Assembly: GCA_012729955.1 (NCBI GenBank)
Contig: JAAYBX010000050.1
Coordinates: 1 to 63,525 of the forward strand
Direction of reading: 5' to 3'
Origin: Clostridiaceae bacterium
GTDB taxonomy: Bacteria; Bacillota; Clostridia; DUPQ01
DNA: 63,525 nucleotides
Positions 1 to 60,985 of the stretch are shown here, piece after piece. The position numbers and the translations under genes were made by a program. The notes beneath the pieces are model-generated. The model did no database searches, was not told the origin of the DNA, and was given only the letters and a program-made list of their open reading frames with translations. Every line of letters starts with the position of its first letter. The first letter of the stretch is position 1.

Positions 1-3000
1 TATACGAATATAACTGGAATAGTATATAAGGATTTTAATGCAAATGCAGTTAAAGACTCCAATGAGACAAGCAGAAGCTACAGTATACTACTTTATTCCG
101 GTGCATCTGCTCAAGGCTCATATCTAAGTTCAACATATGCAGACAGCTCGACTGGATACTATTCATTAGGAGCGATATGTCCTGGAACATATACTCTTAA
201 AATTGCAAAAGACAGCACTGAATATTACCCTGCTTCAGGATCATTCCTTTTTGATAACGAAGGCATCTATACTTTTACACTTGGTTACCCGACTACAGAC
301 CAGATATCTAGTGTTAATCTTGGTATCATTTCACCAAGAACACTTGGTCTGAATTTCACATCAGTTAAAGTTCTCGAAGGCACAACAAGAAATATAGTTC
401 CTACTATAAATCCTGTTTTATCTTCTGAGGAGACTTCGATTATTTATTCTTCCTCAGATGAGGCTGTTGTTACAGTAAGCCCGACAGGAGTTTTGACCTA
501 TGTTTCAGACGGAACTGCAACAGTGACTGTTACAGTCCCTCAGTTATCCGGTTTTGCTGCATTAGAAGGGGAAGCAGACACGATATCAAAGACAGTATCA
601 GTAACATGTGAAAAGCCTGGGTGTAACATAACAGCAGATCCCTATGCTTCGCTTAATGGGACAAATGCTTCCGTCACCAGCCATAACATCCAGTTGACAA
701 GGGGAAGCACATCATCTCAGAGATTCTATTACAGCTTCAACCGTGGAGGATACTGCAACGCAGGCCATACGAATACAAAAGCAGTTACATGGTCAGTCTA
801 CGATGCAGGCGGAACAGATGCGGTTATGTCTTCTACCACATCAGGATATTATTACTCTTATGATTATGAATTCGCTACTTTATCAGTATCAACTCCAGGC
901 ACTGTTATTCTCAAGGCAACAGAAACCTGGTCTCACGATTCCTCACTAAAACCCGAAGACATTTATGTAACAGTGAATGTATACGGGCAGTATGTTATTT
1001 CCTTACCAACTGGTACTGGCTTCACTATAACTCCATATATGTCATCCAGCCCGGTTAATCATAACGGAACATACTCCTTTACTGTCAGCTTGTCAGCAGG
1101 ATATAACCAGTCAGAAATAACCGTTAAGTCAAACGGAACCATCCTTACTTTGACAGATGGAAGATATACTGTATCAGATATTACTGAAGACAAGAGCATT
1201 ACTATTGAAGGAGTAACACCAAATACATATACTGTTACACTTAATACTAATGGAGGTACTATCGGTTCTAATAATGTAACTTCATACACATATGGTACAA
1301 CGAGCACTCTGCCTGTCTCTTCTGATATATCAAGAGCTGGCTATACCTTTAGCGGGTGGACATTGACAGAAAGCGCTGATGATATTTCATATATTACTTC
1401 AATAACCAATACTGAAATTGGGAACAAGCAGTATTATGCAAAATGGGCAGCTATACCGGTTGTATCTCCAACATCTCTTTTTGCAGGAGGAGCTACAGCT
1501 GAATATGGATATTCCTCTGCGACAATAGATACAGCTGTAGTGACTGCTGATGGGCATACTGTTTTAGGATACCAGTGGTATTCATGTAATCAGGATAAGT
1601 CAGATGCTGCTATAATAACCGGAGCTGATACAGATGAATATTCACTTCCTACAGGATATAACGCAGGTTCTTACTACTATTACTGCACAGTAACAATTAG
1701 AAGAACAGATAACTCTCTGACACAGACCTTCGATACTGATGTTGTGTGTTTTGTTGTACAGAAAAAGGCATTAATTGCAACAGCTTCAGCTAATGATAAA
1801 ACATATGATGGTACAATGTCTGCAAGCGGAAGCGTAAGTCTTGCTGGAATATTGGCAACTGATGATGTAAGCGCGACAGGTGTATTCACATTCACAGATG
1901 CAGATACAGGAATTGATATTACTGTCAATGTTACGAGTATTACACTTACAGGTGCTGACTCTCAGAACTATACAGTTAATACATCAGCTTCGAGTTCTGC
2001 GGACATACAAAAAGCATTGCTTATTGCTACTGTAGGGAATTATTCCAAAACTTATGGTCAGGATAATCCTTTATACAGCGTTTCAGTAACTGGATTTGTT
2101 AACTCAGAGACTGCTTCAACAGCCTCAGGCTACATTGCGCCTACTGCCTACACGACGGCAGCGCTGTTATCTGATGTGAATTCTTATACTATTTTCTTAA
2201 CCGGAGGAGAAGCAGACAACTACAGTTTCGATATCACAGATACAGGCTTATTAACAATAAACCAGAAGACGCTTACGGCAGTACCAAGTGCTTCAAATAA
2301 AGAATATAGCGGGACATCCGCTACAACGGGAAGTATTTCCCTTGAAGGTATAATAGGAACAGATCAGGTCACAGCAACTGGAGAATTTAACTTTTCTGAT
2401 CCTGATGCAGGTGAGGGTAAAACAGTCAATGTTACAAATATAACTCTGTCAGGAGATGATGCATCGAACTATTCTGTTAATCCTGTCGCAACATGCACAG
2501 CGGATATATCAAAAGTTACTTTGACAGCAGTTATAGATAATTATACAAAGACATATGGGCAGATAAATCCTTCATTTTACGTGACTGTCACTGGTTTTGT
2601 TAACACAGAGTCCGAATTGACAGCTGCAGGATATACTGCTCCAACTGCAGTAACGACAGCTAGCCAGTATTCAGAAGCAGGGTTGTATGGCATTATGTTA
2701 ACTGGAGGTACAGCGGATAATTATGTTTTTGATATATCTGATACGGCAGTTTTAAGTATAACCAGAAAACAGCTGACTGCAATACCTTCTGCAGATGACA
2801 AGACATATGATGGGAACACAGGCGCAACCGGAACCATTGCACTTGAAGGCATAGTCGGGACAGATGATGTTCATGCAACAGGAAATTTTGCTTTTGCTGA
2901 TTCAGATGCAGCAGAAAACAAACAGGTCAGTGTTACAGGCATTACTCTTTCTGGTATAAAAGCGGATAACTATTTCATAAATCCTACATCATTATGTTAT

Positions 3001-5295
3001 GCCGATATTGATAAAGCATTGCTTAGTGCAGTAGTTGCTGATTATTCTAAAATTTATGGGCAGATGAATCCAGTGTTCACCATACTAGTTACAGGATTTG
3101 TCAGCGGAGAGGATGAGACGACTGCATCTGGATATGTATCACCTAGCGTGGTAACTGCAGCTTCACAGTACTCAGATGTTAATACCTATACGATATCTAT
3201 AACCGGAGGAGAAGCAGATAACTATATGTTTGATACTTCAGACACAGGAATACTTACAGTAAACAAGAAGATGCTGTTGGCTGTGGGATATGCGGATAAT
3301 AAGATATATGATGGGTTTGACAGCGCATCAGGAAACATTCTGCTTGAAGGAATAGTCAATGCTGATGATGTTACAGCACGAGCAGTATTCACATTCTCTG
3401 ATAGCAATAGTGGAGACGGTAAACTAGTGAATATCAGCGCAATTACCTTATCAGGCACAGGTGCAGGGAATTACAGTGTAAACACAAGCGCTTTCTGCCA
3501 TGCTGATATACAAAAAGCTCTCCTTACAGCGGCAGTTGGTGATTATTCGAAAATTTATGGACAGGCAAATCCAGTATTTACAGTGTCAGTATCAGGCTTT
3601 GTGAATGGAGAGGATGAAACGACTGCATCAGGTTATGTCGCACCTTTGGCATCGTCAGCCGCATCAGATTTTTCTGATGTAAATACATATGAGATCACAA
3701 TATCCGGCGGGCAGGCTGATAACTATACTTTTAATGAATCAGATACTGGTAATCTTGAGATTCAAAGGAAACAAATAACTTTTACTGCAAGAGCTTTTGA
3801 TAAAGAATATGATTCATATTTAAGGGCATATGGTTCCATAACTCTTAGCGGAGTAGTTAATGATGATATCGTCAATGCGACAGGGATATTCACTTTTGAT
3901 TCAATATTCCCTGGAACTGATAAAACTGTAACTGTTGCAGATGTTTTGCTGTATGGCACAGATGCTGATAATTATCTATTATCTTCAACATCAGCTACTG
4001 TTACTGCAACAATTACATATGATATAAATAGCGGAAATGATGACGGAATAGCTGTTTATGTAAACGGACAATCTGAAACAGCAGCACAAGCTTCTACAAA
4101 AGAAGAAGATGGTAAGAAAGTTACTACAATAACTGTTGATGATGACAAGATAAAAGCAAAACTGGAAAGTGAAGGCAACAACTCTACTGTAACTATTTTG
4201 TTTGACGAAACACCTGATACTCTGATAAGCCAGCTTAATGGACAGACAATAAAAAATATGGAAGATAAGGAAGCAGTTCTGGAAATTAAAACTTCGAACA
4301 TAGTTTATACAATTCCTGCATCCCAGATTAATATTGATGATGTTGCCTCAAAACTTGAGGATGTAAGCAAACTGAGTGATATTGAAGTAAGTGTTAATAT
4401 TAAGAATCCTCCTGATGATACTGTGAAAATAGTTCAGAATACTGCTGATATCAATAACTACAGTATAGTTATAGAACCGATACAGTTCAGCATAACCTGT
4501 ACTTCAAAATCAGGAGAAGTTGAAGTTACCAAGTTTAACAGTTATGTGGAAAGACTGATTGCAATACCAGAAGGCGTTGACCCATATAAGATTACGACAG
4601 GTATTGTGCTTAACGAAGATGGCTCCTTTACTCATGTGCCTACTCAGATAGTGATTATTGAAGGTAAATACTACGCAAGGATAAACAGCCTTACAAACTC
4701 AGTATATTCTCTTATCTGGAATACAGCAGAATTTACTGACATATCAGGGCATTGGGCAGAACAGGTAATAAATGATATGAGTTCGCGCCTTGTAGTTAAG
4801 GGAATATCAGAAGGACTATTCGCACCTTCAGAATCCATAAACAGAGCAGAATTCGCTGATGTGATTATAAGGGGGCTTGGACTATTGAGGATCGGTTCTG
4901 GGAAACAAGTATTTTCTGATGTGACAAGCGAGAATGAATACTTCGACAGCATATCGATAGGGCATGATTATGGAATTATAAACGGGATAGGTAACGGTTT
5001 GTATGATCCGGAAAAGATTATTACTAGAGAACAGGCAATGCTTATGCTCTATCGAGCTATGAAGATAACCGGATTGGACACATCAATGAAGTCATCAGAC
5101 ATTGCACGATTCAATGCTTCCTTCGATGATGATTCTCTGTATTCCAATTGGTCGCTCGATTCAGCTGCTGCTTGTTTCAAGTATGGAATAATAGAGGGTA
5201 AAGGTGATAGGGTTTCAGATCCTCTGGATGATTTAAGCAGGGCTGAATCTGCTGCAATGATACGAAGACTGCTTATAGCTGCAGGTCTTATATAG
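1..5295 (+). CDS. SLH-anchored multi-repeat surface protein, 5' end outside window
   Basis: The frame is open from base 1, so the gene starts upstream; 1,764 residues are visible. Seen in order: a Big_2-like Ig domain (about nt 367-560), a Cys-containing region, an InlB/Listeria-Bacteroides-type repeat (about nt 1228-1449, with the GYTFSGW signature), then alternating YDG (KTYDG) and MBG (YSKTYGQ) repeats over nt 1770-4010, an acidic linker domain, and three SLH domains (nt 4738-5295; DISGHWAEQ, FSDVTSENEYF and a third copy). SLH triplets in this family bind pyruvylated secondary cell-wall polymer, so the protein should be anchored at the S-layer with its repeats as a stalk. An adhesin or matrix role is inference. 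No terminator is evident before the riboswitch-led operon downstream. A TTG at 493 is internal and not a plausible start. Confidence 0.9.
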   Translation, partial: YTNITGIVYKDFNANAVKDSNETSRSYSILLYSGASAQGSYLSSTYADSSTGYYSLGAICPGTYTLKIAKDSTEYYPASGSFLFDNEGIYTFTLGYPTTDQISSVNLGIISPRTLGLNFTSVKVLEGTTRNIVPTINPVLSSEETSIIYSSSDEAVVTVSPTGVLTYVSDGTATVTVTVPQLSGFAALEGEADTISKTVSVTCEKPGCNITADPYASLNGTNASVTSHNIQLTRGSTSSQRFYYSFNRGGYCNAGHTNTKAVTWSVYDAGGTDAVMSSTTSGYYYSYDYEFATLSVSTPGTVILKATETWSHDSSLKPEDIYVTVNVYGQYVISLPTGTGFTITPYMSSSPVNHNGTYSFTVSLSAGYNQSEITVKSNGTILTLTDGRYTVSDITEDKSITIEGVTPNTYTVTLNTNGGTIGSNNVTSYTYGTTSTLPVSSDISRAGYTFSGWTLTESADDISYITSITNTEIGNKQYYAKWAAIPVVSPTSLFAGGATAEYGYSSATIDTAVVTADGHTVLGYQWYSCNQDKSDAAIITGADTDEYSLPTGYNAGSYYYYCTVTIRRTDNSLTQTFDTDVVCFVVQKKALIATASANDKTYDGTMSASGSVSLAGILATDDVSATGVFTFTDADTGIDITVNVTSITLTGADSQNYTVNTSASSSADIQKALLIATVGNYSKTYGQDNPLYSVSVTGFVNSETASTASGYIAPTAYTTAALLSDVNSYTIFLTGGEADNYSFDITDTGLLTINQKTLTAVPSASNKEYSGTSATTGSISLEGIIGTDQVTATGEFNFSDPDAGEGKTVNVTNITLSGDDASNYSVNPVATCTADISKVTLTAVIDNYTKTYGQINPSFYVTVTGFVNTESELTAAGYTAPTAVTTASQYSEAGLYGIMLTGGTADNYVFDISDTAVLSITRKQLTAIPSADDKTYDGNTGATGTIALEGIVGTDDVHATGNFAFADSDAAENKQVSVTGITLSGIKADNYFINPTSLCYADIDKALLSAVVADYSKIYGQMNPVFTILVTGFVSGEDETTASGYVSPSVVTAASQYSDVNTYTISITGGEADNYMFDTSDTGILTVNKKMLLAVGYADNKIYDGFDSASGNILLEGIVNADDVTARAVFTFSDSNSGDGKLVNISAITLSGTGAGNYSVNTSAFCHADIQKALLTAAVGDYSKIYGQANPVFTVSVSGFVNGEDETTASGYVAPLASSAASDFSDVNTYEITISGGQADNYTFNESDTGNLEIQRKQITFTARAFDKEYDSYLRAYGSITLSGVVNDDIVNATGIFTFDSIFPGTDKTVTVADVLLYGTDADNYLLSSTSATVTATITYDINSGNDDGIAVYVNGQSETAAQASTKEEDGKKVTTITVDDDKIKAKLESEGNNSTVTILFDETPDTLISQLNGQTIKNMEDKEAVLEIKTSNIVYTIPASQINIDDVASKLEDVSKLSDIEVSVNIKNPPDDTVKIVQNTADINNYSIVIEPIQFSITCTSKSGEVEVTKFNSYVERLIAIPEGVDPYKITTGIVLNEDGSFTHVPTQIVIIEGKYYARINSLTNSVYSLIWNTAEFTDISGHWAEQVINDMSSRLVVKGISEGLFAPSESINRAEFADVIIRGLGLLRIGSGKQVFSDVTSENEYFDSISIGHDYGIINGIGNGLYDPEKIITREQAMLMLYRAMKITGLDTSMKSSDIARFNASFDDDSLYSNWSLDSAAACFKYGIIEGKGDRVSDPLDDLSRAESAAMIRRLLIAAGLI
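1770..4010 (+). repeat. Tandem YDG/MBG protein-repeat array (about 0.5 kb period)
   Basis: Five YDG-type units (each with K-x-Y-D/S-G and ending DNY or NNY-like) alternate with four MBG-type units (Y-[ST]-K-[TI]-YGQ...NP). One YDG+MBG pair spans about 500 bp. DNA identity between copies is partial, so the array is old rather than freshly duplicated; the MBG units starting near 3040 and 3540 are the most alike, sharing an IYGQ-NPVFT core and a GEDETTASGYV block. Confidence 0.85.
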
Positions 5296-5363
5296 CTTTA
5301 AAAAGCATAAATAGGACTATTTCAGATATTTAATATAGATAAAAAATTCTCGTAAAATTTTTA

Positions 5364-5392
5364 TTTACAAATTTTGCATACTGTGATAATAT
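5364..5392 (+). promoter_or_regulatory. Sigma-A-like promoter of the riboswitch operon
   Basis: TTTACA at 5364-5369, 17-bp spacer, TAATAT at 5387-5392. Transcription would start just before the riboswitch aptamer. The -10 is imperfect, and an alternative GATAAT at 5385-5390 gives a 15-bp spacer. Confidence 0.5.
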
Positions 5393-5401
5393 GAATTTCA
5401 C

Positions 5402-5476
5402 AAGAAAGGCAAAATACCCGAAAGGGTGTGACGCAAAACTATAGGGCCGTAATGAGATTAAAAGGCAGCCAGTTGC
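5402..5476 (+). ncRNA. Cyclic-di-GMP class I riboswitch (GEMM-I) aptamer
   Basis: The hallmarks of GEMM-I occur in the right order: AAAGGCAAA, a short hairpin ACCC-GAAA-GGGT closed by a GNRA loop, GTGACGCAAAACTATAGGG, then GGCAGCCAGTTGC. The class binds cyclic-di-GMP between the first and second helices. The 3' GGCAGCC element is also the 5' arm of the terminator at 5461-5511, so the aptamer and terminator are mutually exclusive. This predicts that ligand binding turns the operon on (inferred from pairing only). Confidence 0.93.
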
Positions 5477-5511
5477 AATGATTTATTTGCACAGGCTACC
5501 TTTATTTTTTT
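5461..5511 (+). terminator. Riboswitch expression platform: intrinsic terminator
   Basis: AAAGGCAGCC (5461-5470) pairs with GGCTACCTTT (5494-5503) with one C-A mismatch; the interior TGCAA/TTGCA extends the stem with small bulges, and a T-rich tract follows to 5511. The 5' arm is shared with the aptamer. The Shine-Dalgarno sequence of the first gene starts directly after the T tract. Confidence 0.85.
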
Positions 5512-5527
5512 GCAAGGAGGAGGGAAC

Positions 5528-6400
5528 ATGAAGAAGAAACTGCTTTCAGCAGGAATCAGACTGGCTTTAGGCTTAGCAGCTGTTGCAGTTGTTTCCTATT
5601 GGTGGTTTTCTGACGCGTGGTTCTCTCAAAACATTAAGACAGGATCTGATGGAATTGAATTAAGTGCGATAGTGCCATTGAACATATATATATCTGGAAG
5701 TGAAGATGAAAGGCTTTCGCAAAATCTTACTTTCCCGATGGAGGATCTCATTGAATTAGGTTTTTCGAATGCATATGACTATGGTGACAATGTAGTATTA
5801 AGACCTGCTTCATCATCAGACGGAAAGAATTTCTGGTATGCGAAAAAAGTTAACTCTGATGGTATTGCTATTGAAGATGCAGCAAGCCAGTCAACATATG
5901 CTCTTGTTGAACAGACTGATATGGCATATTACATGGAAAAAACTGTATATATGGCTGCAACAACAGAAATGTACGATGATATTACATCAATTGACTGTTA
6001 TGTAAGCAGGGTTACAATATCTGCCCTAACAGCTAACCAGCTTTACAAAGCAGCAAGGATATCGATATCTGTGACAGATGACCAGCTTAATGAGACAACA
6101 TATATATACAGATATGCTGCAGATGCTTTGGATACAGAAGGACAAGCACTGCCAGCTTTAGATGCTCATAATAAAAATTCGATAGATCCTTCAATACCGA
6201 TGGGAACATATGAAAATGAGCAGACAGGAGCATTGCCATTCAACCTTATATGTGCTGATAATGGTATAATTAGTGTAAAGGAACTTACAGTAAGAGTCTG
6301 GTTTGAAGGTGAGAATGATTACGCTGTAAGAATACTTGCTGGAGGGGGATTTGCTTTTGAGATTGAGTTTATGCTTGTAGATCCCGCATTAGGAGATTAA
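5528..6400 (+). CDS. Secreted or anchored protein with SipW/TasA-substrate-like leader, first gene of c-di-GMP operon
   Basis: 290 residues. The start is ATG 5528, behind AAGGAGGAGGG at 5514-5523; a TTG at 5510 lies in the terminator T tract and is unlikely. Residues 1-35 are a Lys-rich N-terminus and hydrophobic segment ending in SDAWFSQ, resembling the [ST]-x-A-[WYF]-F-[ST]-[DQ] region of SipW-processed TasA/camelysin-type proteins. The rest is a beta-rich extracellular domain without Cys motifs; near the C-terminus VRVWFEGENDYA followed by a GG-F-FE-EF segment recalls domains common in clostridial SipW-class proteins. No enzyme motif is seen. Being the first gene after the riboswitch and next to the SipW homologue, it may be a fibre or matrix subunit (inference). 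Confidence 0.8.
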   Translation: MKKKLLSAGIRLALGLAAVAVVSYWWFSDAWFSQNIKTGSDGIELSAIVPLNIYISGSEDERLSQNLTFPMEDLIELGFSNAYDYGDNVVLRPASSSDGKNFWYAKKVNSDGIAIEDAASQSTYALVEQTDMAYYMEKTVYMAATTEMYDDITSIDCYVSRVTISALTANQLYKAARISISVTDDQLNETTYIYRYAADALDTEGQALPALDAHNKNSIDPSIPMGTYENEQTGALPFNLICADNGIISVKELTVRVWFEGENDYAVRILAGGGFAFEIEFMLVDPALGD

Positions 6401-6403
6401 CAG

Positions 6404-6991
6404 ATGACGAGAAAGAAAATCTTCAAAATCCTATACATAATTCTAGTGGTCATTTTCGTTGCTTCTGCAATAGTGACGACTGCCATGATTCTTAGTTTTG
6501 ACAAACAGTATGCATGCCCCAGATTCGGCAGTTATATATTAGTAAGTGTAAACGATTCGGAACTTTCACCCAAAGTACTTAAAGGCAGTGCTTTAATATC
6601 AGACTTGGATTATAACCAGGCAGAAAACGGTGAATATGTGATAATCGCTGCTAAAAATTCTTCCGGTGTACAATATGTGGCAAGAGAAGTCCAGAGAGTT
6701 GAAGAAGGCTATTATACAGTAGCGGGAACTGAAGGCAGAGGATCATTTTATGTAGCAAAGGACAGCATTATTGCAGTTAGCAAAATGCAGATTTATGGTC
6801 TGGGAGCACATATAAACATGATGAGGACACAGACAGGTTTCTTCATTTTTGTAATAATTCCTTTAGTTATTGTAATAATGATTCAGATTATAAGGATGGT
6901 CATGCTTATACAGGAAAAGAAGATAAAAGAGAAATATGAATCAAAAATGCAGATGAATGCTGACAATTCTGCCAATAAGGAGGATGTGTAA
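6404..6991 (+). CDS. SipW-type signal peptidase I homologue with degenerate catalytic motifs
   Basis: 195 residues. Architecture matches SipW-class signal peptidases: N-terminal membrane segment (residues 8-31), peptidase core, and a C-terminal membrane segment (about 145-168) reached through the family-typical T-x-x-GFFIFVIIPL. Catalytic positions look lost. The Ser-Met-x-Pro box corresponds to E53-L54-S55-P56, with Ser replaced by Glu unless register shifts to S52. The His-Arg box reads A93-R94. The TKGD-type box reads T-V-A-G-T-E (105-110). If the alignment is right this is a pseudo-enzyme, perhaps a substrate-binding chaperone, or one using other residues. The gene lies 3 bp after the previous gene, and its stop overlaps the next ATG by one base. 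Confidence 0.75.
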   Translation: MTRKKIFKILYIILVVIFVASAIVTTAMILSFDKQYACPRFGSYILVSVNDSELSPKVLKGSALISDLDYNQAENGEYVIIAAKNSSGVQYVAREVQRVEEGYYTVAGTEGRGSFYVAKDSIIAVSKMQIYGLGAHINMMRTQTGFFIFVIIPLVIVIMIQIIRMVMLIQEKKIKEKYESKMQMNADNSANKEDV

Positions 6992-7752
6992 TGCCAAAGA
7001 ATCTCATTAAAAAAGGCATATTCGCCGTTTCTGCGTTTTTAGTGCTTGTTGTGGCTTGCCTTTTCTGGTTTGGCAGCATTTCCACAGCATGGTTCAGAGA
7101 AGACAGAACATCATATATGTCAGCATCTCACATATACTCGATTACACAAGGTGAGGCAAATAACATTGCATCTTTCAAGAACGAGGGAGCATTTGATGCT
7201 GATCTTCAATTTGAAGTGATTAACGGGGAGTTTACAGAAAGATTCATTCCAGGTGATGTGCTTTACTATACTTTTATTGTCACAGATATAGATATTGCAT
7301 CAAATCAGAATTTCATGATGGAGCTTGCGGGGATGGAAGCGCTGGCTATAGGAGAGGGAGCTGATGCCATATCCTTTGTAAGTAACTGCCGTATTGAATC
7401 AGATACCCTGATATTAGCAGTTCTCGAGGAGTTCGTGAATGAACAGGGCGGTGAATATTATGAATTATACCCGTATGATATTAATGGAAACGCTTTTTAT
7501 GATTCCAGTGACGGCTTAAGCAATACAGGCGTGGACTATATTTACACTGAGCTTAACGGTTTGAATGTTGAACTTCAGTTTACATTACCAAGCAATATTG
7601 CATACCCTCCGGCTACTAATGGTATAGCAGATTTACTGGTAATCGTGCCAATCTGGTATATGGATACTGGAGCAAACCAGAATATTGAAATGGATTGTTC
7701 GTTAACAATAGCCGGATGCATTATGTATCCGTATACAGGAGGCGGGCAATGA
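6991..7752 (+). CDS. AWF-leader secreted/anchored protein (SipW-substrate-like)
   Basis: 253 residues; ATG 6991 follows AAGGAGGATGTGT and overlaps the preceding TAA. The N-terminus is basic, then hydrophobic (residues 8-27), and then STAWFREDRTSYMSASH, comparable with the SipW-type leader of TasA family members. The mature part is rich in acidic and aromatic residues, and segments such as GDVLYYTFIVTDIDIASNQNF recall the beta-sandwich of TasA/camelysin-like proteins. No sorting signal or SLH domain is present. It is translationally coupled to the next gene by an ATGA overlap. Function is not recognised beyond a likely matrix or fibre component. Confidence 0.75.
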   Translation: MPKNLIKKGIFAVSAFLVLVVACLFWFGSISTAWFREDRTSYMSASHIYSITQGEANNIASFKNEGAFDADLQFEVINGEFTERFIPGDVLYYTFIVTDIDIASNQNFMMELAGMEALAIGEGADAISFVSNCRIESDTLILAVLEEFVNEQGGEYYELYPYDINGNAFYDSSDGLSNTGVDYIYTELNGLNVELQFTLPSNIAYPPATNGIADLLVIVPIWYMDTGANQNIEMDCSLTIAGCIMYPYTGGGQ

Positions 7753-8621
7753 GAGAATTTATAAGAAAAAGAAAGGCGATACTGTTAAGTGCTCTGAGTA
7801 TAGTCTTACTAATAGCGATACTTATCACTGCAAGTGTGGCCTGGTTCTATTTTCCGACTACTCAGAACGTAACTATATATACAGATGTGCATTATGAGAT
7901 AAATGTGGACTTATACCAATACAGCAGCAGTTTAGGTTACTTTACCCAGGCAGGTTTAAACGATGAGCAGAATACCGTTATCGCAAATAGCGGTCTGACC
8001 ACAACTTTTGTTGAGTGGGGCGGTGTATTTTATCCTACTGTCCCCTTCACAAACTATTACATGCTTATACTAACTTATCCAGACAGTAACTTTTTAAATG
8101 GCTATCTTGAAGCGGATCTATCAATGATGCTCAGATCAGGTATGAATGGATTGGAACCTAATGATAAAGTCATATACACTAATATCGCATATTCAATAGC
8201 CCCAGATGCGAATATTAACCCGGCTTCGACAAGTGCAATTACACAGGTGCAATCTGCACAGTACATACAGATTTTTCTGCCTCCCGCTCCTATTGAAGCA
8301 CCTGAAGGTGCACCAGTTGACTATATAGATGATGACCATTTGAACATTTCGCTGTTAGATTTAAATTCTCAACAGTATACATATACAACTGCAGAAGGCA
8401 CACAATGCCGTCTTGTGTTATTTATCCGTATAAACAGCGATGCATCACGGATAAGGCAGACCATTGAAGATAATAATGTTCCAGTTAATGTTGTCCAGAT
8501 AGTTACAAATAACATATATACATTTTCCTGCAATTTTAAAAGTATACCATATAAAGCTAGTTATGTAGTTTATGGCAGGATATCTGTTGTGGTGAATTAT
8601 AGAAAGGAAGGGCTGCTATGA
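7749..8621 (+). CDS. AWF-leader secreted/anchored protein
   Basis: 290 residues. ATG 7749 is chosen over an upstream in-frame TTG at 7695 because it forms an ATGA junction with the previous stop and has GGAGGCGGG in front. The basic N-terminus (REFIRKRK) is followed by a membrane segment (about residues 9-31) ending TASVAWFYFP, the same AWF junction seen in its neighbours. The mature domain is polar and beta-rich, with no catalytic motif. It contains a proline-rich stretch (LPPAPIEAPEGAP) that could be a linker. It ends in an ATGA overlap with the giant gene, so all five genes appear to be one translationally coupled unit. Confidence 0.75.
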   Translation: MREFIRKRKAILLSALSIVLLIAILITASVAWFYFPTTQNVTIYTDVHYEINVDLYQYSSSLGYFTQAGLNDEQNTVIANSGLTTTFVEWGGVFYPTVPFTNYYMLILTYPDSNFLNGYLEADLSMMLRSGMNGLEPNDKVIYTNIAYSIAPDANINPASTSAITQVQSAQYIQIFLPPAPIEAPEGAPVDYIDDDHLNISLLDLNSQQYTYTTAEGTQCRLVLFIRINSDASRIRQTIEDNNVPVNVVQIVTNNIYTFSCNFKSIPYKASYVVYGRISVVVNYRKEGLL

Positions 8622-11600
8622 AAAAGAAACGAAGTGTAGTAGTAATAAGCATTATACTAGCAGTCCTGCTTTTAGCTATAGGAGCATATGCTTATTACGA
8701 ATATTACGGAAAGTACAGTGCGTTAATCCAGATTAATGGAGTTATAAGGCTGGATGCATTCGGAGCGCTTGATGATGAGTACCGTGGAATAGAAAACGGG
8801 TATGGCACTACTCCGGAAAACCCATTTATAATTGACAGTAAAGAAAGAATGAATAATCTTATTGTCCTTAATAATGACGGAAGGCTTCTTGCTGCAAAAG
8901 AAGTATACGGAGGTGCGGAAAAGTTCTATTTCGCATTTGATTTCACTGAGCAGCCTACCCCTCAGGTATTGAATCTTTCAGGTATTACCCAAAACCCGGT
9001 CGGTAATAACAAGCATCCCTTCATTGATGATTTAACAGGGCTTCTTTATGCATATCTGGTTAGCGAAGCAGAGTATGTGTATATGAGTGCAGGTGCATCA
9101 GCTGATGTGGAAGTCCTGGGAACTGATGTATATATTGACGGACAGCTTGTAACTGTTTCAGCAGGAAGTGCAGTTACAGCAGAATATATAAAAGTACCGT
9201 CTTTCTATTATTCAACATATGAGGCTATTGCTTCTGATCTTCATTTGATAGCTACATCATTGAATGAATACTACATACCAGTCAGCTCATTGATTCCTGC
9301 ACCTCAGATTGTTTCTAATGTCACAATCAAAGCACCTAATGATCAGATTGATGTGGGGTTCTTCAGCAGTATAGGAAGAGAATATGGAATACTTACTAAT
9401 GAGTTCGGAAATCCGGTTCTGGATGTATCAGGCAATCCGATAATTGATGAAAATACCATAGTAAGCCGATCTTCTGTTCATGATGTCATACTCTACAATG
9501 TTACGATAGACTGTACGGAAACCCAGCCTAACACGATAAAAGCTGCTTTTGATGCAATATGGAACACGATTATGAATAGTGTTCCAAGGCATATTTTTGC
9601 AGATACTGAAACACAGGCGGATAAGAGACATATTGGGCTTTTTGCAGGCCATATTGACGGTATGGCTGAAAATATAACTGTAGCTGGCGAAGGTGTTATA
9701 AAAATAAATGGTGCAGATATTAACACATATTCAAGGTTTACCACAGTTGGGTATATCGATGACAGGGCTATAATAAACGGAGTACAGTTTTCCGAACTTA
9801 TCGGTGCAGGTACCGGAATGGGATTGTTATCACAGCCTCTTTTTGCCGACTCGATATATGATCTTGCTACTATACAGCCGGATGTTTATGAATATCCTCT
9901 AACATCAATACCAGGACAGTCTGGCATATGGAGTGGGATAAGCACTACAGTACAGGGATTACAGAATATAAATCATTTCTCACAAGGCATATTCAGATTC
10001 ATATTGTCAAAAGAAAATGATACAGTTAGCACTATATGGCAGGGAAGAGGAAATGTTTATCTACTGAATGAAGCTGGATTTAATGCTACCCAATCCGTTC
10101 TGTACTGTTCCGATGAATACAGATATAGCGAAACACCTCAAGGTGGAGGAAGTCTGGTTTCTACTGGAGCATCATCAAATGAAACAAGATATGCTGGAAT
10201 AAGCCCGCTGTCAGCATCAAGCAGTATACTTGATAAAGGCAAATATATAATAGTCGCTAAGGTATTTGATAATGTACAGGCAAAATTCAGGTATTATGCA
10301 GTAAAGATAATCGCGGTAATCGGTGAAGACGGGACAATCGAATATGTTTTTGATGACTCTGAAAAAGTTGAAGTAACTGATTATATAAACGGAACTAGCA
10401 CAGAAGGCATTTACACAAGCTGCATATGGCAGACAGCTTCAGATACTCAGGAACCGACTTTCCAGAATACCCGTTTCAAATCGCAATTCTTATCAGTTCA
10501 GCATGGATCATCACTAGATCTGACTCTTGCAAATGATGTAAGCAGCGCAGCAGCATTCAGGGCAAGTGTGCTAAACAGTACATTCACATACTCTATAACT
10601 GAACAGGTAGGAGCTGGGTATGTTACAACAAGATACTATCTGAACTTTAATACAGCAACATCAGAGTTCTACTTTTCAACAGCAAACGACACAACTATAG
10701 AAATCTATCAGATATCCAATGGATTCAATCTGGAACTGGTGGATAGTGTTGCAGATATTACAGTGAATGATGACTATGTTATTGTTGCCCAATATGGTGG
10801 CAGCAATTACCTGATTGGTACAGGAACGACAGAAGGCATAGGCGGGACACTGGTTGTTGACGGTACATTTTCTTCTGATTTATCACTGTCACCGATGCCT
10901 GCCAACTGGAATATAAACGAATATCAGGCCTTAAAGAGATATATATGGAATGCTCCAAATGTTGCTGCAGGTACAGTAGCTTTCCGTGAGAAATTAAGTG
11001 GAACATACTATTTAGGGTATTCAGGCAGTACATTAGCATTGACTCAGCAGCAGAATATGTGGACATATACCCAGAATGCGGGAGCAGGCGGGACACTTGG
11101 CATAATATCAAACTATCTTACATATATATATAACCCTGGAGGATCAGGCTTCACGCTTGCTCCAAATCCATATACTATTTATTTATACAAACTGGTGCCA
11201 GATGATACTGAACCGGATTATAACACCTACCAGGGTGCAAAGCTTGTAACTTCAGACAGTTCTGTTGTACAGCAGGGCCAGTATATGATTGCTGTCAACA
11301 CTGGTACCTCATATCAGGCTGTAATAATGACTGCTGCCAATACTTTAGGTATTGCTGATATAACACAGTATGCAAACGGAACAGCTTCATCCGCGCAGCT
11401 TCAGCTGCTTTTAGATGGTGCAGCAAATGAAGGGTATAAATGGAGGGTAAATACCACATCATCTACCCCTTCATTACAGAATATAAAATACAGCTCTTAT
11501 CTTTCCAACTCTTCGAATATACAGCCAGCTTTGTCTGCAACTGAAGTCCAGTGGATGTACGATGCCGTATCAGGAAGGCTTTATTACTCTTCTTCGGGCA

Positions 11601-14600
11601 TACTATACTATTTGGCATATAACGGGACAGGTTTTGAGATTACATCAGATTCCAATAATGCAGCGCTTACATATGACATAAGGTTATATAAGGTTACATA
11701 TGAATATGAATATTCTGATGTTGTGCCTGTTCAATCCATATCGTATACAGATGCAACGTATATAGATAAAGTATATGTGGGAGAGAATAAGTATTACTTT
11801 CTCCTTACAGCTCCTCTTACAGATATGGCTAATACAGCACCATATATTCTAGGTTCATTTGGTACTGTTGATCAGGCTCCAATAGAATCATTAAATATTG
11901 CACCGACATCTTCATATGATTCTGTGAACAGTATATTTACGACTTCATCGGATCTCACATATTACAGATGGAGAATGGATACAAGGATGATAAATCCTAC
12001 TACTGTATATGAATGCGGATACCAGTTCAGAAATGATGTTACGAATATGTACATAGGTGCGTCCAATAATCCATCATCGCGTACTCTTGTTATGGTTGCA
12101 ACTTCTAATATAAATATGAACAGGACAAGTACTAACGCAAGTCTTGAAAACAACGATGACAGCGCATCACCTACAGGTATAGGACTTGGAGCTACTTCCA
12201 TATCACGTTCTCCTGGCAATTTATACCGTACTGATGTGAATGGTAATTACATAGGCAATTCCTTCTATATTATGGGAAGAAGATCACCATTTGAATATTA
12301 TGTTTGGAAAACTCCGTCACCGGGCGTTTTTGCATTAGCTTTAAACAACAGTTCATCTGCTGCACCATCTGAGTACTCTCTTCCATATTTATATGAAGCA
12401 ACAGGGTATACTACTAATGTAATAATCTCAGAAATCAGTGAAATTGGTGATAATCTTGATTCTGATATGCACTACATGATTACAGCTAAGGTTGATAATC
12501 TGGATACTACTTTCAGTTATTATGCATTGAGTGAAACACTTAATGAATTAAGCAATAAGGTTCTGACTGGAACTAATGTTACTTCTCAGGCTTCAGCTAT
12601 TAACAACAGCAATATTTTGGATGAATTCGGACAGATAGTTGAAGAAAGCAGTACTGATATGCTTATAATGGTTCCTGTAGAAGCAGACTGGTACCAGACC
12701 AGCAGTAATAAATCATTATACTTCTACCAGGATTACTATTCCACAAATGCTATCAAAGACTGGCTGACCGCTTCTGGTTCAAATGTCAATATTACAAGTA
12801 TAGATGTCAATGTCAGTACTCAGCCATCTACACAGTGGTATTACGATGCAATCTCCAAGTATATGTTTTATACAGACGGGATAGATAAGTATTATCTTAC
12901 TTATGACATTTTGACGGATGCTTTTTCCCTTACTACTGACCGCTCTTCAGCGACACATACTTATATATATAGATTTAAGCCGACATATGTTGTAAGCAGG
13001 GTTACAGATGCTGCAGAAGACAGTCTCAAAGATGGGGATTTTATAGTTGCCGGGAGAGATGCGGAAGGGTATACAGCGCTTGGGTTGTCTGACAGCGGGT
13101 TAAGCCTTGAAGCAAGGAATATTACCGAATATATAAAGGAGACATTGACAGAGACTGAACGTAATGAGATACTGCAGTTCATATGGAAGCAGCAGTATTA
13201 CGATTTCTACTCTGCAACATATAATCCTGTATCAACTACCCAGTATATGCAGCTTTTCTCATATATAACTGGAGGAGGATTTACAGTAATATACGACACT
13301 TCTACTGGAGGCATGGATTTAAGCTCTGATCCGATGATATGGAGAATTACAAAAGATAGTAATGGTTTATGGTCGTTTATTAATAACCGTTTAAACGGCA
13401 GTGTTGGTGCAAACACCCGTGCAATAAGATTTACTGGTGATACATCAAGGCTTACAGTAGCAGATACAGCCAAAACAGCTGAAAGATATATCACAGCAGG
13501 ATTAAGTTATGCTTTTTCCACTGCTGGATACCCAGTAATATTATGTGATACAAACGGTATTCCAGTTACCTCGCCTGTTGCAGGCACTTCGTATTTAGTA
13601 CTGGCAAGATATAACGGAGTTAACTACTCTGCAGTTAAAAATAGTTCAGGAACAATTACTCTTGTTAACTATACCTCAAGTACATATCAGGATACAGGAT
13701 GTTTGTGGACAGCAACAGAAAATGTCGGAGGCTGGACTCTAAATAATGGAGGAAGATATATTTCTGCAATTGCTGACGGAAGCATTACGTCAGCGACAAC
13801 AGCAAGTGGCACATGGGAATTAAGCGGAACTGGCCAGATGAGCTATTCAACATACAATTTTCCTTATCGTGCTTCAACAACTAGCATCAGCATGACTACA
13901 AATACCGGGACATATTCATCAAGGTTATATGATTACACATACAGCGGAGGAGTTGGAACTCTTGTACCGACTACTTCTGCAGGAAGTAATAAAGTGCTTG
14001 TTTTCAGATCAGGAACAACATATTACGCATTAAGGATAAATAATACCAGTTTTTCATATTACACTCTTGCAAGCGTATCAGTTCAGGCAAATGGTACAAT
14101 CACGACAACAACTAATTTGACAAATACTAATGCTATATTGACAGCAATACAATCAGGAACAGGCATTACGATACAAGGTGCAAGATATCTGACATCTGAT
14201 GGAAGTACTTTCGGAAGAAACCAATCAGCAGGAACGACATTCTATCTTGACTCAAAAGGTTACTTCTATTACTCACAAGGTACAGTATATACCCCTCTGG
14301 TTACCCCTGCATATAATACATCGGCAACAACTGGAGCTACCATATATATGTATGAACACAACTCAGGAGTGTATACTCCTGTTACAGGCAATCTCTCTGC
14401 AGGAAAAACCTATGTTATGCTTGTTTATGATGAATCAGTATATTATCTGATTGGACAGGATGGCTCTATACTTACCCGTACATTCATCGGTTCAACCTTA
14501 CCAAGCGGGTGGGAAAGCAGCATAAATCCTGATCTTCATCATATAACTGCTAATGCAGGAGCAATTGGTAATTATCTTGTTTTCAGTACAATATCTGGTT

Positions 14601-17600
14601 TCAGCCATCTGACTATTATCAACAATATGTTCCTGTTAACCGGTTCTCAGACAACACAGTGGGAATACAGCTATAGCGGGACATTAGGCGCTGATTCAAG
14701 ATTGTATAGTGTTGTCAATACCAATCTTACGGCAGCTCATCTCACTGTAGGTGCTACTAATCGAATTGAGACAACATCAACTGCAATGGATGTCATACTG
14801 TATCAGGCTGCTCTCCAGGGTGACGGGAGCTATACTCTGACAAGCAAAATTACATCTGGCGTGCCTACATCAGGAACATATGTGATAGTAATATTCAAAG
14901 ATGGGATATATTATGCAGTTAGATACTCGTCAAGCGGTATAATCGGGTACAATTTAGGTTCTTCTGTGCTTGCAGAAAACATAATTCCAGATTTAGTCTG
15001 GACAGCGGATGCATCAGGATTTAAGAAGGATGTGGGAGGACAGACATATTATTTAAGAAGAAATACTGAGGGGCTTTATGCAGGCACTTTGCCAGGTTCT
15101 ACATGGGCATATACATATACCAATGTGACAGCAGCTTTCACTGCAACCAATAGCTCGTCTACACCACTGTATATTTTCCGGGTAGATAAGAGCTCTGAAC
15201 TGGATGATGTTACTGATACAATTTCCATGCTTTCTGGAAAAGCTAAACTTACTCAGTCAGTCAGTCTTTTGGAATCCAGCAATTACGTTATAGTTGCTGA
15301 AGTAGACGAAGACAGCGACTCAATTGTAGACAGATATTATTCCTTATCCATGAATGATATATACAACACCAGGCCAATTGATATTACAGCACTGATGAAC
15401 CTGGCTTTAGGCTATAGCAGCAGCTACATAACTTTCTTTGATGCTAGCGTGTGGGTAAATCAAGGAACAGATCTGGAAGTCATCCTCAAAAATCGCGGAT
15501 TTACTGATACTTATTTCTTGACAGGAGCCAAGGGTAATCTCGAGGATATGACCCCTCAGATTGAGCTTGTAGACGAAGAAGCTGTGCTTGATCTGACAGA
15601 CTACAAATGGCGTATATACTCATATACGATAGGAAGTGAGAATGTATATCTTCTGGGTTATGTTGATACTTCAATTGGCGGGGGGACCATCTTCTATATG
15701 TATTTTGATCCTGCAGATCTGACCTTCAAATTAACTACAGATTATACTACTGCAGCAAGCACACAAGGGAGGGTGCAGCTTTATCAGCTCGCTGCTATGA
15801 CAACCGTACAGCCTACATTCCATTCATATGTAATTGAAGTAGCAGACGATAATCAGACGATATTATCTTATCCGGTTAATCTTGTGGAGTCGCAGGATGA
15901 TCTGTATATGTACTCCCAGTCTGAAGTGGAAGGCCAGATTACAAGGACAGGCGAATACCTCATATCTGCTGTTATAGGTAATCAGTACTATACGCTGACA
16001 GTCTCTGAATTATTGAACTTATCAAATGTTGATGTTAATCCATATTTCAGCGGTAATTTCAGCATAGATACCAATGGCAATTATTGCATATCAGTTAACA
16101 GTGAATATATATGGAAGCAGATATCCAATCCTGCTTCTGTCCTGAATTTTGAAAATACTGCATACACAGGTTACTATCTGTCTTCACAGAATGCTAACTT
16201 CATATATGACATTGAGAACCGTCAGCTTTCTAACGGAACAAGTTTTCTTGCATTTGATCTTGATAATGGTTTTTATCTTTCATCGACTGCTTCAGAAGTC
16301 CCTATAAATTTATATCTTCTTGGTCAGACAGGTGTTGAAGCAGGACTGCCAGGAGGAGATTTATCATACAATTATTTCACACAGCCTCTTACTACAATTG
16401 GAGGAGCTGTTGATTTTACCAAATTTAGTTTTACAAAGACTCTTATGCCTGATTTGAAGAGATACGGGATAGGTTATGACGGTACTATAGGAAGCGTTGA
16501 AGGCTGGACTTTGTATAATGCTGAACAGATACTATCAACTGCTGACTCCTCTGTATTCTTTTCTGAGGGGATTACTACCACAACTGATGTTGCTTTAATG
16601 AAAGAAGATTTCATAGAAATGACCCATACTACAGAATATGACAGTACTACTGTAGATATTTCATATTATGCACCTGCAGGTTCTGCATCATTTGTCATTG
16701 ATGAAGCAAGCCAGGAGAATCCGGTTTTTGTAAATGTTATAGTAACAACCGAATTTGATGATGTTCTGCTTAATCCGGAGTATCTTCGATATCTCGCATT
16801 ATGGAAAATCGCAAATATCGATCTTGGTACAGGACAAACAACACCTATTAAAACGTATGGAGACGGTTCTGATGAAGTAGGTAATTACGCATATACGTTC
16901 ATAGATGGAAGAAATACTCCATATGCTGCTATACCGCTTCCAAACAGGTATGGGACAACAGCAAGCGGGGCATCTTTTGCGAGAGTTGACGGTACAGATT
17001 ATACATTAAGTGATGTTGCATACGGTGAGGACTACTTTATCGCTCATACATATGTAATAACTGATCCGGGAGTCTATTATCTAGGAGCATCATATGGTTC
17101 TGTTGCCTTTACATATCTGGCAGTAGACAACAGGGCGCTTACTGAGGAAGGTGAGACTTCTGGTCTTGGATTTGAAGACCAGTTTACAATAGACTTCTGT
17201 TACGGCGATATTTTAACATCAGTAAACGGTCTGGTACCTAATGAAGCAGTAGGGGATCTTGTATATGTAGGATCTGATTTGTGGTACCAGAGCAATATAT
17301 ACCCTCAATGGATAAAAGGTACCGCTGTTAATCAGACAGATTATCTGTATATAAATGTTAATAGAACTAAATCAGATATTGATGCTACTTCAAGCGTGAA
17401 TTTCAAAGCTTATACGACTGCACCTATAGCACCTGGTATACTGCACATAAATGATAATACTGCAGCACAAAGATTGACAAGAAAAGTGGATTTCAGAGTT
17501 TACTCTAAAGGACTTGATGCAGCTGCATTTACTGGTGTGAGTGACAGGTTATGGGTATGTGATATTGATGAAGATGATCATGTGACATTCTCAACTGTTC

Positions 17601-17932
17601 TCAATACTGGTACAGAGGAAGGTAAATACTATATCAATGTATCGCAATACGCTATTGGTGATGTATTACAGGCTGATATTCCTGTTCTGACTACTACTAA
17701 TAAGTATAAGTGGGATGTGATAGGCGGATACCTTGTGACGGCTGATGGAAGGTACCTCATCAGGACGACAAGCGGATATGCTTTATCATATTCTATATCT
17801 AATGCAGTGTCAGTATATACTTATGATGGCACACTTACGCAGGTAACAGAGCTTGTTAATGGAACACCATATCTGCTTATAGCATATGATGGTACTGGTA
17901 ATAAATGTGTGACTGTTAATCTGACACAATAA
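8618..17932 (+). CDS. Giant 3,104-residue modular extracellular protein
   Basis: ATG 8618 overlaps the previous stop (ATGA) and has AAAGGAAGGG upstream. Residues 1-27 are a basic head plus a hydrophobic signal-anchor ending AYAYYEYYG. Residues 30-480 resemble GLUG-type beta-helix proteins (PFIIDSKERMNNLIVLN, IDVGFFSSIG, HIGLFAGHIDG). The remainder consists of about 13 degenerate modules, each opening with a strand pair of the form g-x-Y-[VIL]-[IL]-[VA] followed by YYa[LV], then a Trp-containing segment, a YL-containing strand and often a closing L-Y-x-[YFL]-K. The modules have the look of repeated small beta-domains, possibly carbohydrate-binding; the fold is not identified. There is no LPxTG, SLH or enzyme motif, and the C-terminus stops just after a new module opens. 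Expression is predicted to depend on the c-di-GMP riboswitch 3.1 kb upstream. Confidence 0.88.
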   Translation: MKKKRSVVVISIILAVLLLAIGAYAYYEYYGKYSALIQINGVIRLDAFGALDDEYRGIENGYGTTPENPFIIDSKERMNNLIVLNNDGRLLAAKEVYGGAEKFYFAFDFTEQPTPQVLNLSGITQNPVGNNKHPFIDDLTGLLYAYLVSEAEYVYMSAGASADVEVLGTDVYIDGQLVTVSAGSAVTAEYIKVPSFYYSTYEAIASDLHLIATSLNEYYIPVSSLIPAPQIVSNVTIKAPNDQIDVGFFSSIGREYGILTNEFGNPVLDVSGNPIIDENTIVSRSSVHDVILYNVTIDCTETQPNTIKAAFDAIWNTIMNSVPRHIFADTETQADKRHIGLFAGHIDGMAENITVAGEGVIKINGADINTYSRFTTVGYIDDRAIINGVQFSELIGAGTGMGLLSQPLFADSIYDLATIQPDVYEYPLTSIPGQSGIWSGISTTVQGLQNINHFSQGIFRFILSKENDTVSTIWQGRGNVYLLNEAGFNATQSVLYCSDEYRYSETPQGGGSLVSTGASSNETRYAGISPLSASSSILDKGKYIIVAKVFDNVQAKFRYYAVKIIAVIGEDGTIEYVFDDSEKVEVTDYINGTSTEGIYTSCIWQTASDTQEPTFQNTRFKSQFLSVQHGSSLDLTLANDVSSAAAFRASVLNSTFTYSITEQVGAGYVTTRYYLNFNTATSEFYFSTANDTTIEIYQISNGFNLELVDSVADITVNDDYVIVAQYGGSNYLIGTGTTEGIGGTLVVDGTFSSDLSLSPMPANWNINEYQALKRYIWNAPNVAAGTVAFREKLSGTYYLGYSGSTLALTQQQNMWTYTQNAGAGGTLGIISNYLTYIYNPGGSGFTLAPNPYTIYLYKLVPDDTEPDYNTYQGAKLVTSDSSVVQQGQYMIAVNTGTSYQAVIMTAANTLGIADITQYANGTASSAQLQLLLDGAANEGYKWRVNTTSSTPSLQNIKYSSYLSNSSNIQPALSATEVQWMYDAVSGRLYYSSSGILYYLAYNGTGFEITSDSNNAALTYDIRLYKVTYEYEYSDVVPVQSISYTDATYIDKVYVGENKYYFLLTAPLTDMANTAPYILGSFGTVDQAPIESLNIAPTSSYDSVNSIFTTSSDLTYYRWRMDTRMINPTTVYECGYQFRNDVTNMYIGASNNPSSRTLVMVATSNINMNRTSTNASLENNDDSASPTGIGLGATSISRSPGNLYRTDVNGNYIGNSFYIMGRRSPFEYYVWKTPSPGVFALALNNSSSAAPSEYSLPYLYEATGYTTNVIISEISEIGDNLDSDMHYMITAKVDNLDTTFSYYALSETLNELSNKVLTGTNVTSQASAINNSNILDEFGQIVEESSTDMLIMVPVEADWYQTSSNKSLYFYQDYYSTNAIKDWLTASGSNVNITSIDVNVSTQPSTQWYYDAISKYMFYTDGIDKYYLTYDILTDAFSLTTDRSSATHTYIYRFKPTYVVSRVTDAAEDSLKDGDFIVAGRDAEGYTALGLSDSGLSLEARNITEYIKETLTETERNEILQFIWKQQYYDFYSATYNPVSTTQYMQLFSYITGGGFTVIYDTSTGGMDLSSDPMIWRITKDSNGLWSFINNRLNGSVGANTRAIRFTGDTSRLTVADTAKTAERYITAGLSYAFSTAGYPVILCDTNGIPVTSPVAGTSYLVLARYNGVNYSAVKNSSGTITLVNYTSSTYQDTGCLWTATENVGGWTLNNGGRYISAIADGSITSATTASGTWELSGTGQMSYSTYNFPYRASTTSISMTTNTGTYSSRLYDYTYSGGVGTLVPTTSAGSNKVLVFRSGTTYYALRINNTSFSYYTLASVSVQANGTITTTTNLTNTNAILTAIQSGTGITIQGARYLTSDGSTFGRNQSAGTTFYLDSKGYFYYSQGTVYTPLVTPAYNTSATTGATIYMYEHNSGVYTPVTGNLSAGKTYVMLVYDESVYYLIGQDGSILTRTFIGSTLPSGWESSINPDLHHITANAGAIGNYLVFSTISGFSHLTIINNMFLLTGSQTTQWEYSYSGTLGADSRLYSVVNTNLTAAHLTVGATNRIETTSTAMDVILYQAALQGDGSYTLTSKITSGVPTSGTYVIVIFKDGIYYAVRYSSSGIIGYNLGSSVLAENIIPDLVWTADASGFKKDVGGQTYYLRRNTEGLYAGTLPGSTWAYTYTNVTAAFTATNSSSTPLYIFRVDKSSELDDVTDTISMLSGKAKLTQSVSLLESSNYVIVAEVDEDSDSIVDRYYSLSMNDIYNTRPIDITALMNLALGYSSSYITFFDASVWVNQGTDLEVILKNRGFTDTYFLTGAKGNLEDMTPQIELVDEEAVLDLTDYKWRIYSYTIGSENVYLLGYVDTSIGGGTIFYMYFDPADLTFKLTTDYTTAASTQGRVQLYQLAAMTTVQPTFHSYVIEVADDNQTILSYPVNLVESQDDLYMYSQSEVEGQITRTGEYLISAVIGNQYYTLTVSELLNLSNVDVNPYFSGNFSIDTNGNYCISVNSEYIWKQISNPASVLNFENTAYTGYYLSSQNANFIYDIENRQLSNGTSFLAFDLDNGFYLSSTASEVPINLYLLGQTGVEAGLPGGDLSYNYFTQPLTTIGGAVDFTKFSFTKTLMPDLKRYGIGYDGTIGSVEGWTLYNAEQILSTADSSVFFSEGITTTTDVALMKEDFIEMTHTTEYDSTTVDISYYAPAGSASFVIDEASQENPVFVNVIVTTEFDDVLLNPEYLRYLALWKIANIDLGTGQTTPIKTYGDGSDEVGNYAYTFIDGRNTPYAAIPLPNRYGTTASGASFARVDGTDYTLSDVAYGEDYFIAHTYVITDPGVYYLGASYGSVAFTYLAVDNRALTEEGETSGLGFEDQFTIDFCYGDILTSVNGLVPNEAVGDLVYVGSDLWYQSNIYPQWIKGTAVNQTDYLYINVNRTKSDIDATSSVNFKAYTTAPIAPGILHINDNTAAQRLTRKVDFRVYSKGLDAAAFTGVSDRLWVCDIDEDDHVTFSTVLNTGTEEGKYYINVSQYAIGDVLQADIPVLTTTNKYKWDVIGGYLVTADGRYLIRTTSGYALSYSISNAVSVYTYDGTLTQVTELVNGTPYLLIAYDGTGNKCVTVNLTQ
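10230..17930 (+). repeat. Degenerate protein-module array in the giant gene
   Basis: Module openings of the type GxYxIVA...YYAL lie near nt 10236, 10761, 11270, 11776, 12458, 13028, 13575, 13984, 14398, 14867, 15271, 15947 and 17858. Spacing is mostly 390-680 bp, with a non-modular insertion of about 1.3 kb near 16400-17700. DNA-level identity is low, so the repeat is visible only in protein. Confidence 0.65.
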
Positions 17933-17968: not shown

Positions 17969-17994
17969 GATCTCATAGTTTATGAGATCTTTTT
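17969..17994 (+). terminator. Intrinsic terminator after the giant gene
   Basis: Perfect 9-bp stem GATCTCATA / TATGAGATC with a 3-nt loop and five T residues. It closes the riboswitch-led operon. Confidence 0.9.
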
Positions 17995-48971: not shown

Positions 48972-49221
48972 GTACCATACTAGACGGGGAGTTAGCGGTG
49001 CCTTGTAATCTGCAATCCGCTATAGCAGAGTGGAAATCCTGTCTTAGGGCAATTAATAGTGAGGCAGCCGTATAAAAGCGGTTATGACGGCCGGGTCTTG
49101 TGCAATTTGAGCTTGTGAACCTCGTCAGGTCTTAGCGGAAGCAGCGATAAGCAGGAAATCAGATGTGCCATAAGAGCGCCTGGCCTGAGCAGGCTGTATA
49201 CGTAACGCTTGTTATTTTTGT
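48972..49221 (+). ncRNA. ffs: Signal recognition particle RNA, large bacterial type
   Basis: The 5' Alu part has the conserved GGGGAGTTAGCGGTGCC and CAATCCGCTATAGCA strings of Gram-positive scRNA. The S-domain apex reads GTCAGG-TCTTAGCGGA-AGCAGC, aligning in length with the standard GTCAGG-TCCGGAAGGA-AGCAGC. The hairpin tetraloop would be UAGC (URRC class) rather than GGAA. The 3' end is placed at the T-rich stretch near 49216-49221, so both ends are approximate. It stands directly upstream of dnaX, as in many Firmicutes. Confidence 0.92.
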
Positions 49222-49259
49222 TCGAAGACAGGTGTATGGTCTTCGATATAGGAGTTAGA

Positions 49260-60908: not shown

Positions 60909-60985
<77 letters not shown>

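Follow-up and report, generated by a model that had tools for sequence, protein, structure and literature searches.

A candidate ON-type c-di-GMP-I riboswitch, with one strand shared by aptamer and terminator, ahead of a probable surface operon in a Clostridiaceae bacterium

The closest described systems differ in the direction in which the ligand acts. In Bc2 of B. thuringiensis, a GEMM-I aptamer is followed by an intrinsic terminator directly before the gene of a surface adhesin, transcription terminates without ligand, and c-di-GMP raises read-through into the adhesin gene both in vitro and in vivo (PMC4933901). The pilM switch of Geobacter metallireducens, a c-GAMP sensor whose P1 forms upon ligand binding, is also ON; its aptamer and terminator are mutually exclusive, and the terminator sequesters C75, the ligand-pairing C (PMC9262584). 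In contrast, Cd1 of Clostridioides difficile, a c-di-GMP-I aptamer ahead of flagellar genes, is OFF, and its terminator can form alongside the aptamer, the two competing with an antiterminator (PMC9262584). According to PMC6200980, functional class I switches of C. difficile are OFF and class II switches ON, and one class I locus that rose with c-di-GMP was ascribed by the authors to its promoter; thus, riboswitch class alone predicts no direction. Class I ON switches have been predicted for Desulfobacca in a review-type survey (PMC9481103).

The stretch of DNA analysed here (the window) comprises 63,525 nucleotides from a Clostridiaceae bacterium and carries on the + strand, at 5398-5480, a c-di-GMP-I (GEMM-I) aptamer that aligns to Rfam RF01051 over its full length (model positions 1-87) with 64.5 bits, passing the gathering cut-off of 35. 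The features of the leader and of the five genes behind it are collected in Table 1. This leader very probably acts as an ON-type c-di-GMP-I riboswitch at the level of transcription. As in Bc2, the terminator lies directly before a gene, and transcription is predicted to stop when ligand is absent and to continue when c-di-GMP is bound; at the G20 position, however, Bc2 carries A (A11) where the window has G, and its target is the gene of a collagen adhesion protein, whereas five genes follow here. The locus shares with pilM a terminator that excludes the aptamer and captures the ligand-pairing C, and with it the predicted ON direction, whereas the G at G20 and the unseen P1 set it apart; in these last two features it resembles Cd1, whose P1 is described as undetectable (PMC9262584). 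Elsewhere in the window, a Large SRP RNA (48975-49239, + strand, 178 bits) and a tRNA gene (60912-60985, - strand, 70 bits) were identified.

Table 1. Coordinates of the leader and of the downstream genes in the window.
Feature	Position	Strand	Basis
Promoter-like site, sigma-70-like, TTTACA-17-TAATAT, TG ahead of the -10	5364-5392	+	scan, 9/12 matches
P2 base	5409-5410/5433-5434	+	Rfam alignment
P2 with GAAA loop	5414-5419/5424-5429	+	Rfam alignment
P3	5437-5440/5471-5474, 5444-5445/5469-5470, 5446-5448/5464-5466	+	Rfam alignment
Shared strand: P3 3' side and pocket C of the aptamer = terminator 5' arm	5461-5478	+	alignment, folding
Terminator hairpin (3' arm 5487-5503, loop 5479-5486; -16.0 kcal/mol)	5461-5503	+	folding
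Terminator tail: A5504, then seven U (U5505-5511)	5504-5511	+	sequence
Shine-Dalgarno-like AAGGAGGAGGG	5514-5524	+	sequence
First gene, 290 aa, N-terminal hydrophobic stretch and AWF motif	5528-6400	+	translation
Second gene, 195 aa, degenerate SipW-like	6404-6991	+	weak family match
Third gene, 253 aa, without family match	6991-7752	+	family scans
Fourth gene, start uncertain (7716 or 7749)	7749-8621	+	translation
Fifth gene, 3104 aa, without family match	8618-17932	+	family scans
Terminator-like hairpin past the fifth gene	17969-17989	+	sequence

On mapping the Rfam alignment to coordinates, both pocket letters are present, with G20 at G5408 and C92 at C5476 in Vc2 numbering. This placement of the Vc2 numbers on the Rfam model is consistent with PMC11218506 and PMC9262584. 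Across the 97 surveyed aptamers (see below), C occupies the C92 position in all, and at the G20 position 85 have G and 12 have A. Within the aptamer, the segment GGCAGCC (5464-5470) contributes G5464, G5465 and C5466, which pair with C5448, C5447 and G5446, as well as C5469 and C5470, which pair with G5445 and G5444, while A5467 and G5468 belong to the unpaired part of P3. Folded alone, the aptamer has an unremarkable energy (z -0.72), its support coming from the covariance model. A simple pattern for the 11-nt receptor of the GAAA loop had no match in this P3; the pattern is crude, having also missed 21 other aptamers of the 97 and passed L016, a leader of the same genus, by a chance match. 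Another receptor for the loop may be usable here. By eye, the receptor is absent from L016 as well. Besides the receptor result and the OFF direction of the C. difficile class I switches, it was counted against the ON reading that no P1 appeared in the fold with the aptamer pairs enforced and that the bit score is below every score among the best class matches listed. Counted in its favour were the 19 GGDEF matches of the source genome (96% complete, 202 contigs), in which this aptamer is the single GEMM-I match.

The promoter-like site, detected by a scan for which chance matches are expected, indicates that transcription probably starts near the aptamer, and 5399 was the start assumed for folding. 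The terminator pairs 5461-5465 with 5499-5503, 5467-5470 with 5494-5497, 5472-5473 with 5491-5492 and 5475-5478 with 5487-5490, and within the last helix the pocket C5476 pairs with G5489. Since the terminator takes the 3' strand of P3 together with C5476, aptamer and terminator are mutually exclusive; this is the layout of a strand-sharing ON design. An earlier note on this DNA had assigned GGCAGCC to the aptamer and to the terminator 5' arm alike, which the Rfam alignment and the hairpin bear out; its coordinates were right, but it understated the extent of the shared strand, which reaches from 5461 to 5478 and includes C5476. Its prediction that ligand would raise expression also gains support, because a terminator that consumes the P3 3' strand and the ligand-pairing C should be disfavoured by ligand, and because the arrangement matches, by analogy, those of pilM and Bc2. 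In the proposed mechanism, RNA polymerase would start near 5399 and transcribe the aptamer. If c-di-GMP, the presumed ligand, were bound before 5487-5503 emerges, P2, P3 and C5476 would be locked into the ligand pocket, formation of the terminator would be blocked and the genes from 5528 to 17932 would be transcribed. Without ligand, 5461-5478 would pair with 5487-5503 and transcription would stop in the U-tract at 5505-5511, just before the ribosome-binding site.

The hairpin is better than expected from composition: when the 27 nt downstream were shuffled preserving dinucleotides, with the aptamer strand fixed, only 18 of 5000 shuffles matched or surpassed it in energy and linked pairs (20/5000 with a longer tail), and the segment 5464-5511 folded alone gave z -3.09. 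Against the ON reading we counted that the hairpin is imperfect, with one C.A and one A.A mismatch as well as a U bulge, and that a simple terminator scan did not list it, in keeping with these imperfections. Two motifs flanking the U-tract (window 5485-5515), UUUGCA on its 5' side and UGCAA on its 3' side, are kept in this leader and in that of a sister genome (L021, genome G002). They could pair once the terminator opens, and L021 shows this pairing in the fold that retains the aptamer.

L021, the only orthologous leader compared (n=1), is identical to the window in the promoter hexamers, the pocket, the P2/P3 pairing letters and GGCAGCCAGUUGC, with the differences concentrated in the loops of P3 and of the terminator and in the stretch after the stem. 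The 3' arm of the terminator agrees at 13 of its 17 positions, and the changes fall at 5492, 5498, 5500 and 5501: one turns the C.A mismatch into C-G, two alter outer pairs, and the one at 5492 abolishes the G5472-C5492 pair. This lost pair and a shorter U-tract in L021 were counted against the ON reading. The L021 hairpin is kept (-18.1 kcal/mol, 11 linked pairs; 40/5000 shuffles as good). Genes one to four are orthologous in G002, in conserved order and with identities of 67, 67, 62 and 62%, whereas the upstream regions differ, with other ORFs of 169 and 275 aa in L021 and an SLH protein in the window. The latter (493-5295) has 1600 residues with YDG, MBG_2, List_Bact_rpt and SLH domains. 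The scan of genome contigs yielded one orthologue and one weak match, too few for covariation. In the order-level search of 11 genomes, P0005 had matches in four, the one in G001 being a distant homologue only; the orthologue in G003 runs to a contig end, and the leader comparison is therefore limited to L021.

To place the design among relatives, we surveyed GEMM-I leaders, which occur in 10 of 11 family genomes (28 matches in all) and in 166 of 391 genomes of the class. The survey contained 98 aptamers, or 97 after removal of L072, a duplicate of L045; these are the 28 of the family and 69 among the best-scoring class matches listed, so they are not a random sample, and tandem copies were counted apart. 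As a raw count, the first terminator starts 14 to 0 bases before C92 in 16/97. One of these, L015, is doubtful, given the enclosing stem also present in its leader. In a further six the first terminator lies further upstream and takes in most of P3, in 41 it comes after C92, a layout compatible with OFF, and in 34 none was found (among them L031, with two bases only past the aptamer). Another labelling rule gave 20 overlapping, 43 separate and 34 without terminator. With an arm at a similar place in 16/97 aptamers, the design is already known and this leader is a further example of it. In L016 and L025, GEMM-I leaders of the same genus, the terminator arm likewise lies at the pocket C and the operon holds a gene distantly homologous to the first gene of the window (24-28% identity), but the arm begins one base before C92 instead of in P3, and the operon opens with an EAL-domain protein (L016:338-1120 and L025:1670-2434; 83 and 88 bits). 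On inspection by eye, neither protein carries the EAL signature letters. In five family genomes (leaders L011, L015, L017, L027 and L035), the aptamer sits inside a stem of 6-7 bp, AACUUUC (AGCUUUC in L027) with GGAAGUU, leading directly into U's; judged from sequence, it looks as if P1 itself served as terminator stem, in which case ligand would favour termination (OFF). The pairing between the flanks is clear in the free optimum of L011 and L035 and not in L015, and a looser scan, applied to all 97, gave 12 enclosing pairings of this kind, the five among them, so that by that scan alone they could have arisen by chance.

Folded from 5399 with ViennaRNA, the leader reaches -15.1 kcal/mol with the aptamer pairs enforced and -28.0 kcal/mol in the free optimum with the terminator, an advantage of about 13 kcal/mol for the terminator fold over the bare aptamer, in energies that leave out tertiary contacts and ligand. 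PMC9262584 gives a sub-micromolar KD for Cd1 and pilM, and micromolar ligand would presumably add only a few kcal/mol; thus, the terminator should win at equilibrium. In the folding of the growing chain, the lower P3 is populated at 0.57, falling to 0.19, for RNA ends from 5476 to 5494, and at 5496 it is lost and the terminator closed (0.95). Given this equilibrium and the transient lower P3, control in the model is most likely exerted kinetically, within a window of some 20 nt (61 nt for Cd1 in the same paper). Using a borrowed on-rate of 2e4 per M per s, within the range given in PMC9262584, the estimated occupancy at 20 nt/s without pause is 2% at 1 uM, 18% at 10 uM and 87% at 100 uM, and a 10 s pause would bring it to 89% at 10 uM.

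The size of the energy gap, the 2% occupancy at 1 uM, the missing P1 and the unrecognised receptor motif all count against the ON reading and would also suit a ligand-independent attenuator or a decayed switch, in which the terminator is too stable and the aptamer too weak for a useful effect of c-di-GMP. We regard this as improbable, since L021 retains the pocket and the P2/P3 letters while the P3 and terminator loops vary, and since pilM is ON with a window of 25 nt and a high sensitivity to transcription speed, and Cd1 binds with no P1 detected (PMC9262584).

A switch of transcription could also be offset at translation, as in Bc1 of B. thuringiensis, whose ribosome-binding site and start codon are reported to be trapped with ligand (PMC11218506): read-through would rise, the freed arm and U-tract would pair with the region of the ribosome-binding site and start, and protein output would change little. 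Holding the aptamer indeed leaves 5521-5526 largely paired (unpaired 0.06-0.33), with the start codon (5528-5530) unpaired at 0.21-0.32 compared with 0.83-0.99 in the free fold. The Shine-Dalgarno core (5516-5518) behaves in the opposite way, being unpaired at 0.76-0.78 with the aptamer held and at 0.19-0.20 in the free fold, and in L021 the terminator fold keeps most of GGAGGAAUAAU closed (0.00-0.11), while holding the aptamer makes it more accessible (0.37-0.77). The modelled accessibility is therefore mixed and does not favour occlusion of the ribosome-binding site, and there is little chance that such dual control operates here. An OFF switch in which ligand promotes termination, as in the uniformly OFF functional class I switches of C. 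difficile reporters (PMC6200980) and as the layout of 41/97 surveyed aptamers would allow, is very improbable and was rejected, since a terminator built from the aptamer strand itself cannot be favoured by ligand and no other + strand terminator is listed in 5250-5650 by the scan, which had also missed the 5461-5503 hairpin.

Returning to the ON switch, its targets would be five genes that are tightly spaced (a 3-nt gap or overlaps) and probably co-transcribed. Neither the third nor the fifth product had a match in scans of Pfam and NCBIfam at E up to 1, and the matches of the first (Pfam DUF627, E 0.08) and the fourth (one NCBIfam match, E 0.99) are at chance level. The second product resembles SipW weakly (E 8e-4, 19 bits against a cut-off of 190); it also matches TMEM154 (E 7e-4, under the cut-off), other matches being weaker. 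In the alignment columns where L040 and L041 have Ser and His, which we take to be the catalytic residues of SipW, it carries E and R, and so is not classed as a SipW peptidase. Its orthologue in L112 (10874-11452) has E and R in the same columns. With the SipW-like protein of L040 as query, window 6404-6991 was the sole match in the source genome at E <= 0.001. Thus, compared with a TasA/SipW-type surface fibre operon, a SipW-like second gene is present with the Ser/His columns not conserved, and no family match to a TasA-like substrate was found; an AlphaFold2 model of the first product from a two-sequence input has a mean pLDDT of 34, too low for fold comparison. The fifth product shows, by eye, an N-terminal hydrophobic stretch and repeats. 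A surface role of the operon is likely from sequence, and a sessile one conceivable, on the strength of the hydrophobic N-terminal stretches seen by eye, the AWF motif that the first product has in common with L040 and L041, and the weak SipW resemblance.

The leader is real, well formed and ordinary in kind, and our literature search found no paper whose title or abstract opening concerns it, which is not proof of absence. It is a rather unlikely, although conceivable, extension that in this genus GEMM-I became a purely kinetic ON sensor responding only to high c-di-GMP, with an altered P3 top devoid of the canonical GAAA receptor and no P1, and that the sole c-di-GMP-I switch found in the source genome is dedicated to a surface operon with a giant protein. 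If the switch is ON in the cell, as we predict, it would add an example of class I ON control in a clostridium, in front of genes that probably encode surface proteins, unlike the class I OFF and class II ON arrangement of C. difficile. The principle itself is established; an ON switch here would link c-di-GMP to an uncharacterised operon encoding a protein of 3104 residues.
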